Assembly (NCBI RefSeq): GCF_012720115.1
Contig: NZ_VNWN01000002.1
Span: forward strand, 744,001 to 808,000
Length of the DNA: 64,000 nucleotides
Source of the DNA: Sneathiella chinensis
GTDB taxonomy: Bacteria > Pseudomonadota > Alphaproteobacteria > Sneathiellales > Sneathiellaceae
Direction of reading: 5' to 3'
The position numbers and the translations under genes were made by a program. The notes beneath the pieces were generated by a model. It ran no database searches. It saw only the letters and a list, made by a program, of their open reading frames with translations, and was not told where the DNA came from. Within the stretch, counting starts at the first letter, position 1. The number at the start of each line of letters is the position of its first letter. Positions 16,026 through 17,771 of the stretch are shown in pieces.

Positions 16026-16054
16026 ATGGTAGGTGACGTTTACGTTAACGTCAA
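16026..16054 (-). promoter_or_regulatory. promoter and LiuR-like palindrome for the atu-like operon
   Basis: Read leftward: -35 TTGACG (16049-16054), a 17-base spacer, and -10 TACCAT (16026-16031). The palindrome TTTACGTTAACGTCAA (16039-16054; 14 of 16 positions symmetric) spans the -35 and spacer, the geometry used by MerR-family activators. It resembles the LiuR motif as I remember it. It lies about 90 bases upstream of both the SDR and the divergent SCP2 gene. Confidence 0.55.
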
Positions 16055-16133
16055 GAAGGTTGGCTTGATGCTTTTGACAACAGCCTGCCAACTTGGAAAA
16101 ACAGGAACAGTCAGGCCTGAAAGGAACTGAAAT

Positions 16134-16646: not shown

Positions 16647-16865
16647 ATGACAGCAAGATCTGCACGGCACGGCCGCAATCAGGGTGGCAAAAGCCGGAAA
16701 AAAGGTGGCGGCGGACGCGGCAACGGCGGAACAAAGAACTGTCGTTCGAATGCGCAGCGCACTGCACGTAAACTGACACTGAAAATGGGCCGTCACGCTG
16801 CCCGTCGCCAGTTGAAGAAAGTACAGGCTGCTACTCGCGCTGCGAACGCTGCGCAAGCTGCCTAA
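16647..16865 (+). CDS. small, very basic Gly/Arg/Lys-rich protein
   Basis: 72 residues; I do not recognise a family. About a third of residues are Arg, Lys or His, and there is almost no acidic residue. Residues 8-32 are a flexible Gly/Arg/Lys tract (RNQGGKSRKKGGGGRGNGG). A predicted helix follows (about residues 36-72) rich in Ala, Arg and Gln. The composition suggests binding to RNA, DNA or the ribosome, but this is inference. The ATG at 16647 follows GGAGCTGGTCAA; an earlier in-frame ATG at 16527 would add 40 residues of unlike composition. A strong terminator follows 17 bases after the stop, supporting a real transcript. Confidence 0.65.
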   Translation: MTARSARHGRNQGGKSRKKGGGGRGNGGTKNCRSNAQRTARKLTLKMGRHAARRQLKKVQAATRAANAAQAA

Positions 16866-16882
16866 TCCTTTTTCAAGGAATC

Positions 16883-16920
16883 AAAAAAAGCTGCACCGGG
16901 ACACCGATGCAGCTTTTTTT
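16883..16920. terminator. bidirectional Rho-independent terminator
   Basis: Perfect 13-bp stem AAAAAAAGCTGCA / TGCAGCTTTTTTT with a 12-base loop. A-tract and T-tract allow termination from both sides: the basic 72-aa gene on + and the 57-aa frame on -. Confidence 0.9.
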
Positions 16921-16941
16921 GTGCCTTTTTTCGGGGAAATG

Positions 16942-17115
16942 TCAGTCCCGGGCCGGTTTGGACCGTAACGCGTCCTGTGGTTTGGCGGGATGAATGTCCG
17001 TGGATTGCCGGTTGCGGGAAGGCGCAGGGCGGGGCGCGGCCTTGTTCTGTTCCCGGATGGTCTGCATGATCAGACTGGCAAGCGAGGAGGCGCGAAGATT
17101 TCTGACAATGACCAT
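16942..17115 (-). CDS. 57-residue hypothetical protein behind an iron-box-like palindrome
   Basis: A frame of 57 codons, ATG to TGA. The N-terminal half is helix-like and amphipathic (MVIVRNLRASSLASLIMQTI); the C-terminal half is rich in Pro, Arg, Lys and Gln. I do not recognise a family, and it does not match the hemin uptake protein HemP. The ribosome site is weak (AGGTCTGCC). Support comes from context: a 29-base palindrome lies 19 bases upstream and a strong terminator about 20 bases downstream in the same direction. It could instead be the body of a small RNA. Confidence 0.4.
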   Translation of the reverse strand: MVIVRNLRASSLASLIMQTIREQNKAAPRPAPSRNRQSTDIHPAKPQDALRSKPARD

Positions 17116-17133
17116 GGCAGACCTGTTTTTCTG

Positions 17134-17162
17134 TTAATAATGAAACTGACAATCATTATTAA
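17134..17162 (-). promoter_or_regulatory. Fur/RirA-like palindromic operator (TGA-N9-TCA)
   Basis: TTAATAATGA-AACTGACAA-TCATTATTAA is a perfect inverted repeat of 10-bp arms with a 9-base spacer. It contains TGA-N9-TCA, the iron-responsive-operator core described for RirA, and also resembles AT-rich Fur boxes. It precedes only the 57-aa frame. Confidence 0.6.
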
Positions 17163-17225
17163 ATAAGAAAAAAGAGTCGTTCGTCAATCTAAAACTGACC
17201 CGATCGGGATGCTTTTGCTCAGAGG

Positions 17226-17771
17226 TTACTCGGGAGCGGTATAGCGTTCGCCCACATTCTCGAAACCGGTGTCATATCCCCAGCCATCCCGCTCTGCGGC
17301 GAGAATGATATTGGCGCAGGCCCGAGAATCGGACAGGGCGTCATGGTGGTCAAGATCGAGCCCCAGGAAATGTGCCACATTGGGCAATTTTGTCGGGCGG
17401 ATTTCCCACATGCTTCGGGCCAGTTTCACAGTGCAGACAAACTCTGTCTCCGGGGCGTTCAGGCCATAGGTGTCGCAGCAGCTTTTCAGGACCTTTGAAT
17501 CAAACCCGGAATTGTGGGCCGCCAGAAAGTCGATGCCGTCGAAGAAGGGGGCGATTTCCGGCCAGAGCGCCTGGAAAACCGGCTCGTCTTTCACATCCAG
17601 CCAGGTCAGGCCGTGAATATGGGTGAAATAGAATTCGGGGGTTGGCGGTTGGATCAGCCGGGCTTCTTCGGCGACGATAACGCCATTTTCCGCGCGAACG
17701 AGGCCAATGGCGCAGGCGCTGTCAGAGGCGTAGTTGGCGGTTTCAAAATCGATTGCAAGAAAAGTGCTCAT
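17226..17771 (-). CDS. 3'-5' exonuclease (DnaQ/RNase T superfamily)
   Basis: 181 residues. DEDDh exonuclease motifs in order: Exo I AIDFETANY (residues 6-14), Exo II AAHNSGFD near 85, and Exo III HDALSDSRACANI near 145, with the acidic residues and the motif-III His present. It should degrade single-stranded nucleic acid 3' to 5' with two metal ions. Stand-alone members act in repair or RNA turnover. The ATG is the only good start. It has no operon partner, the neighbouring acyl-CoA synthetase being separated by a terminator. Confidence 0.9.
   Translation of the reverse strand: MSTFLAIDFETANYASDSACAIGLVRAENGVIVAEEARLIQPPTPEFYFTHIHGLTWLDVKDEPVFQALWPEIAPFFDGIDFLAAHNSGFDSKVLKSCCDTYGLNAPETEFVCTVKLARSMWEIRPTKLPNVAHFLGLDLDHHDALSDSRACANIILAAERDGWGYDTGFENVGERYTAPE

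Follow-up and report, generated by a model that had tools for sequence, protein, structure and literature searches.

A predicted Fur-regulated small protein gene behind an exonuclease gene in Sneathiella

A frame of 57 codons in Sneathiella (Alphaproteobacteria) very probably encodes a Fur-regulated small protein: as read from the sequence, it forms a single-gene unit with a predicted Fur-like operator over its promoter and a product whose N-terminal ~24 residues are under selection. The gene lies in a stretch of 64,000 nucleotides (hereafter the window; G000:C12:744001–808000) of a genome of 3.55 Mb. Taken as a whole, the explanation that we consider likely is a Fur-repressed, adaptor-like microprotein of iron starvation. 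The proposal of an iron-regulated small protein, made in the initial annotation, gains support from the Fur-like box over the promoter, from conservation at the codon level and from similar boxes at iron genes.

The frame begins with ATG and occupies positions 16942–17115 of the minus strand, as had been annotated, and its product combines a conserved N-terminal stretch of about 24 residues with a basic, variable tail. On one side stands the minus-strand gene of a 3′-5′ exonuclease (17226–17771) and on the far side a terminator-like inverted repeat (16882–16921; 18-nt arms, 94%, with an A-run and a T-run), which the small open reading frame (ORF) shares with a 72-codon gene that converges on it from the plus strand. 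The terminator claimed after the frame is present as this repeat, but a generic terminator scan called none and missed it. We read the promoter elements directly from the minus-strand sequence: a −35 hexamer TTGACG (17182–17187) lies 18 nt before a −10 hexamer TTTAAT (17158–17163), which is overlapped by the box, and a possible Shine–Dalgarno sequence AGGTC (17120–17124) has its AGG 6 nt from the ATG. A generic promoter scan called nothing on the minus strand at the locus and gave one plus-strand match (17114–17141). From the box to the terminator no further minus-strand gene is seen, as had been stated, and no evident iron gene adjoins the small ORF in the window.

The arrangement recurs in the genus. 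Of 24 genus genomes, 22 have a match to the exonuclease gene, and at 16 of these 22 loci the same place behind it is taken by a small ORF (49–68 codons) with the promoter and a Fur-like box before it. At the other six loci (L023, L024, L034, L037, L038, L040) both box and ORF are missing, the terminator comes directly after the exonuclease gene, and the best Fur 19-mer within the next 120 bases reaches only 8–10 of 19 positions. A profile search of the 24 genomes found the small ORF in 16, always as a single copy at the exonuclease locus, and detected nothing with E up to 0.1 in the remaining eight, which include the two genomes that also have no exonuclease match (G010 and G020); G007, G010 and G020 are 65–86% complete. 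Eleven named loci were examined among the best 80 of 209 matches, with the ORF present in seven and absent from four, and the sequence of L112, from a Sneathiellales metagenome-assembled genome, is unlike the 16 genus loci. The cultured S. sedimenti (L110) is among the carriers of the gene. In a tree of the exonuclease, the SCP2 protein and the 72-residue protein (22 rows, some partial), the presence of the ORF needs at least three changes and well supported branches force only one, so that gains and losses cannot be firmly counted. Since six of the 22 loci do without it, the small-ORF gene is dispensable.

The element at positions 17134–17162, TTAATAATGA-AACTGACAA-TCATTATTAA, had been described as a perfect 29-base palindrome with a TGA-N9-TCA core. 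The core is present and the two 10-nt arms are perfectly (100%) complementary, but the 9-nt centre is asymmetric, and the element departs from its reverse complement at 7 of 29 positions. Repeats with perfect 10-nt arms and a spacing of at most 20 nt start at 18 positions in the 64-kb window, which by our grouping are eight separate repeats, against 0–6 such positions in 10 first-order Markov controls; a repeat of this kind is thus commoner than chance in the window and not unique to the locus. Inside the element, on the plus strand, lies the Fur-like box TGACAATCATTATTAA (17147–17162). The best Fur 19-mer there has 15 of 19 positions, a value equalled by 0 of 500 shuffles, and the window's own box is neither within two mismatches of the relatives' upstream box nor in the plain 7-1-7 form.

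The element common to the relatives is a predicted Fur box. The exact 10-9-10 palindrome stands at the place of the box in only 1 of the 16 loci, so in this form it is indeed absent from the relatives, whereas the underlying Fur-like box is retained. Within 110 bases before the start, the best Fur 19-mer has 13–16 of 19 positions at all 16 loci, and in 15 of them no more than 18 of 500 shuffles do as well; that of L025 is weak (13/19, with 71/500 shuffles as good). The sequence TTAATAAT, around the −10, is the same in all 16 upstream regions and runs into the Fur-type site, and TTGAC is found in 15 of the 16 aligned regions (TTTGC in L028). A second Fur-type site before the −35 (TTGCGAATCATTCTTAA and variants) was seen by eye in at least 11 of the 16 loci and provides the best 19-mer in L027 and L033. 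In three loci (L027, L029, L031) the box includes TGCAAATCATTTGCAAT, whose 17 bases also occur in the altered feoAB1 operator co-crystallised with Magnetospirillum Fur; the window's own box, with its 10-9-10 arms, has diverged from that operator. According to the structural study, Magnetospirillum Fur binds the altered operator with much the same strength as the natural operator (PMC4506495). The genome's Fur matches 4RAY, one of the entries of that paper (PMC4506495), over residues 1–135 (E 3.9e-57), and scores 104.9 bits on the NCBIfam equivalog, under the cut-off of 146. The genome also has an Irr above its cut-off (204.6 bits against 150) and a Zur-like protein.

The Fur-like character given to the box in the initial annotation is supported by Fur-type 19-mers over the promoter in relatives and by similar boxes at known iron genes, and a RirA-type reading of its core is not supported: TGA-N9-TCA occurs at the place of the box in 1 of 16 loci (L021; one more occurrence lies elsewhere in L028), and no protein of the genome attains the RirA cut-off. 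On the RirA model (cut-off 193) the genome's two strong Rrf2 proteins reach 59.7 and 38.6 bits, and RirA was rejected as the regulator; the former protein reaches the cut-off of a SUF regulator.

Similar boxes were sought elsewhere in the same genome. The relatives' upstream box, at up to two mismatches, gave seven sites against three for the pattern reversed; two of the seven, at bfd and at a small RNA (sRNA) candidate, are the only ones that look iron-like by eye, and one other lies inside a tRNA-like stretch. A pattern built on three sites of the genome itself (at bfd, at the sRNA candidate and the window's own box) hit 18 sites, compared with 4 when reversed; the zero-mismatch matches at its three source sites arise by construction, and independent support is confined to the two further sites with at most one mismatch. 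One of these precedes hemP (PF10636) and a TonB receptor gene recognised by its plug domain, and the other precedes the gene of an ABC solute-binding protein that looks like the iron type. Twelve of the 18 sites have two mismatches, and the three of them that were examined (L193, L195, L202) have no evident iron gene.

The sRNA candidate, which may be Fur-controlled, lies outside the window (L077, 2434–2506, minus strand; about 278433–278505 of G000:C12) and consists of a Fur-like box (C12:278542), a −10 TATAAT, a short stretch and a terminator-like repeat. On the full Rfam suhB/MmgR model it scores a sub-threshold 28.4 bits (cut-off 41, E 5e-4).

Whether conservation at the small ORF follows codons or RNA structure had been posed as a check, and the answer is codons, because synonymous change exceeds nonsynonymous change in the true frame and there is no clear RNA structure. 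For codons 2–24 (120 pairs pooled from 16 loci), pS was 0.75 and pN 0.33 in the true frame, compared with 0.41 and 0.43 in the +1 frame (a stop in 16/16) and 0.27 and 0.49 in the +2 frame (a stop in 4/16). The mean minor-base fraction at codon positions 1, 2 and 3 was 0.33, 0.16 and 0.49, that is, third positions vary most and second positions least, and Arg and Leu codons switch between synonymous codon boxes. When the last 40 ORF bases and the terminator were left out, folding energies were on a level with those of shuffles (mean z 0.16 across the 16 loci; range −1.27 to 1.69), and all 16 loci together gave an empty consensus fold (0.00); an 11-locus clade gave −1.51 vs. −0.27 (sd 0.75) for shuffled columns, a signal that is weak at most. 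Rfam gave nothing at gathering score in the window, and only weak sub-threshold matches (best E 0.021). The small RNA that had been offered as an alternative is accordingly not favoured. At 12 of 16 loci the stop codon, as judged by eye, falls within the hairpin of the terminator, which makes nearly the whole transcript ORF; from assumed start sites, we estimate the unit at ~220–270 nt.

In the protein, M1, R5, L7, L15 and E22 are invariant among the 16 genus sequences, the N-terminal pattern is M-[IV]-x-[IVL]-R-x-L, the net charge ranges from +1 to +8, and the C-terminal half is hardly conserved. AlphaFold2, run with 8 sequences, predicted a helix over residues 9–25 and a tail of low confidence, with block pLDDT values of 86 for residues 11–20 and 73 for residues 1–10; the overall values (mean pLDDT 63.8, pTM 0.33) mean that the model says little beyond the helix. 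It contains no strand in residues 1–8, where "strand-like" is our own reading of the alternating pattern. The window protein matched no Pfam or NCBIfam family at E up to 1, and the same Pfam search, which gave no match to PF10636, indicates that it is not HemP. A tblastn search of plasmids yielded 8 records for the window protein (best E 0.5) and 3 for the G171 protein discussed below (best E 2); matches under annotated genes (sigma-54, polyketide synthase, autotransporter-type protein) were rejected as unrelated. One literature search found no paper joining a Fur box, a small protein, iron and Alphaproteobacteria.

A genus-only profile run against 385 genomes of the class matched, with E up to 0.1, 15 genomes outside the genus, none of them significant alone, because chance is expected to give as many. 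The best, L053 (E 0.007), belongs to another order and is the sole one among the 15 with a Fur box within 150 bases before the match (17/19, 0/3000 shuffles); in the same interval the other 14 have Fur 19-mers of only 9–11/19, with no Fur box in L060 and L066 (11/19 and 10/19; 27/300 and 135/300 shuffles as good). We take L053 as a likely true homologue with its own strong predicted Fur box. L054, of genome G171 (E 0.011), has no box directly before it and stands between an AphA-like gene (PF14557) and a DUF2325 gene (PF10087). Its paralogue in the same genome, L082, lacks an ATG at the aligned start and likewise follows an AphA-like gene (PF14557), with a gene after it that looks like DUF2325; G418 has copies of both. 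These runs of an AphA-like regulator, a small ORF and a DUF2325-type gene behind a Fur-like box lie in the regions L076, L104, L102 and L103, two each in G171 and G418. The Fur-like 19-mers that precede these four runs have 14–16/19 positions, and a scan of six regions gave four such 19-mers elsewhere too. The DUF2325 partner is not general, since it had no match in any of the 24 genus genomes, 17 of which are at least 90% complete.

In the orders of G388 and G171, matches were found in 1 of 9 and 2 of 17 genomes, with E-values inflated because the query held those sequences themselves. A wider profile search gave 20 matches, of which 14 were neither genus nor query; three of the 14 were examined (L088, L091, L093), and L088 alone was carried forward. 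L088 (E 1.5e-4 with a profile already containing L053, L054, L082 and L083) has an ATG at M1. A box directly before it is lacking; in its neighbourhood are two imelysin-like genes, of which one matches PF09375 and the other was recognised by look.

On the basis of established Fur biology, Fe-Fur would cover the −10 and block transcription when iron is sufficient, and the small-ORF gene would be switched on as iron runs out. Less certainly, the product would be an adaptor-like microprotein, in which the N terminus (M-[IV]-x-[IVL]-R-x-L) and helix 9–25 might dock on some protein partner that acts in the iron-starvation response, and the tail, which is basic and poorly ordered, would be free to vary; the effect could be iron sparing or help to uptake. 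Docking by the first 25 residues is the simplest fit that we infer, and we put it forward tentatively, as a possible rather than a probable mechanism. It would be decidedly speculative to extend it to an undescribed family of Fur-repressed microproteins in several alphaproteobacterial orders, with a strand-helix module of ~25 residues docking on a conserved partner for iron sparing and, in Sneathiella, perhaps acting with a Fur-controlled MmgR-like sRNA.

Other readings have to be weighed against the Fur-repressed adaptor. In other bacteria Fur represses sRNAs such as RyhB and PrrF (PMC3751524), and the short terminator-ended unit, the stop codons in the hairpin and the weak clade fold would suit a RyhB-like regulatory or dual-function RNA with an incidental or secondary ORF. 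The codon-position pattern, the synonymous Arg and Leu box changes, the empty fold over all 16 loci and the lack of an Rfam match at gathering score make this improbable; a pairing seed without structure could still give the locus a dual role as protein and RNA. An ORF that arose by chance behind a stray Fur-like site, or the remnant of a longer gene, would explain the missing family match, the variable C-terminus and the six loci without the ORF, but the position, box and N-terminus kept at 16 loci and the excess of synonymous change speak so strongly against it that we regard it as scarcely credible. HemP/HmuP is a small protein that helps an iron uptake system or acts as a co-regulator, and it resembles our protein in having 57 residues behind a Fur-like box. 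A similar helper or co-regulator, or a protein that, like MntS, modulates a transporter, is suggested by possible homologues in the runs of Fur-like box, AphA-like gene, small ORF and DUF2325 gene and near imelysin genes (L088/L101). The window protein differs from HemP in lacking a Pfam match and in not preceding a TonB receptor, and one HemP is encoded elsewhere in the same genome. Metal-repressed proteins of similar size with such roles do exist: MntS of E. coli is described as a small protein made when metal is scarce (PMC4361602), although it responds to manganese rather than iron and is likened here by description only. With no iron gene evident beside the small ORF in the window and DUF2325 unmatched in the 24 genus genomes, we consider an uptake helper unlikely.

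In Bacillus subtilis, FbpA, FbpB and FbpC are under Fur control. They are described as small basic proteins said to act with the sRNA FsrA in iron sparing (PMC3751524), and a protein acting like FbpB, aiding an iron-sparing sRNA, would accord with the positive charge of the 16 genus proteins and with the Fur-like box before the sub-threshold suhB/MmgR-like candidate. A comparable iron-sparing role has been speculated for Caulobacter CC0681/CC0682, unannotated small ORFs repressed by Fe-Fur (PMC3751524), which are likewise alphaproteobacterial and are compared with ours by description, not by sequence. Against such a role, two of the four outside homologues (L054 and L082) have a net charge of −1, and the conserved part is the N-terminal strand-helix stretch rather than the basic tail; the Bacillus proteins, moreover, belong to another phylum and are likened by description only. 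We rate this reading as quite unlikely.

The small protein is a candidate for what performs iron sparing in many Alphaproteobacteria. Its kind is already known, as the Caulobacter study presents unannotated Fur-repressed small ORFs; the family itself matched neither Pfam nor NCBIfam in our searches. Small ORFs are easily overlooked even in Fur regulons, which are among the best studied in bacteria. Since control and coding are conserved, the predicted form is simple and 6 of 22 syntenic loci lack the gene, the role is directly testable.

Two further features of the window were observed. The convergent plus-strand gene (16647–16865) encodes a basic, glycine-rich protein of 72 residues with no match at the Pfam cut-off, present at least in part at all 22 genus loci, and GCGCTTCGAATTTAA, upstream of it, appears strongly conserved by eye in several loci. 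The palindromic GTGACGTTTACGTTAACGTCAAG, at about 16033–16055 between an SDR-like gene and an SCP2 gene, is kept in L002 and L003 and resembles a LiuR-type box; the window that carries it also holds acyl-CoA carboxylase genes.
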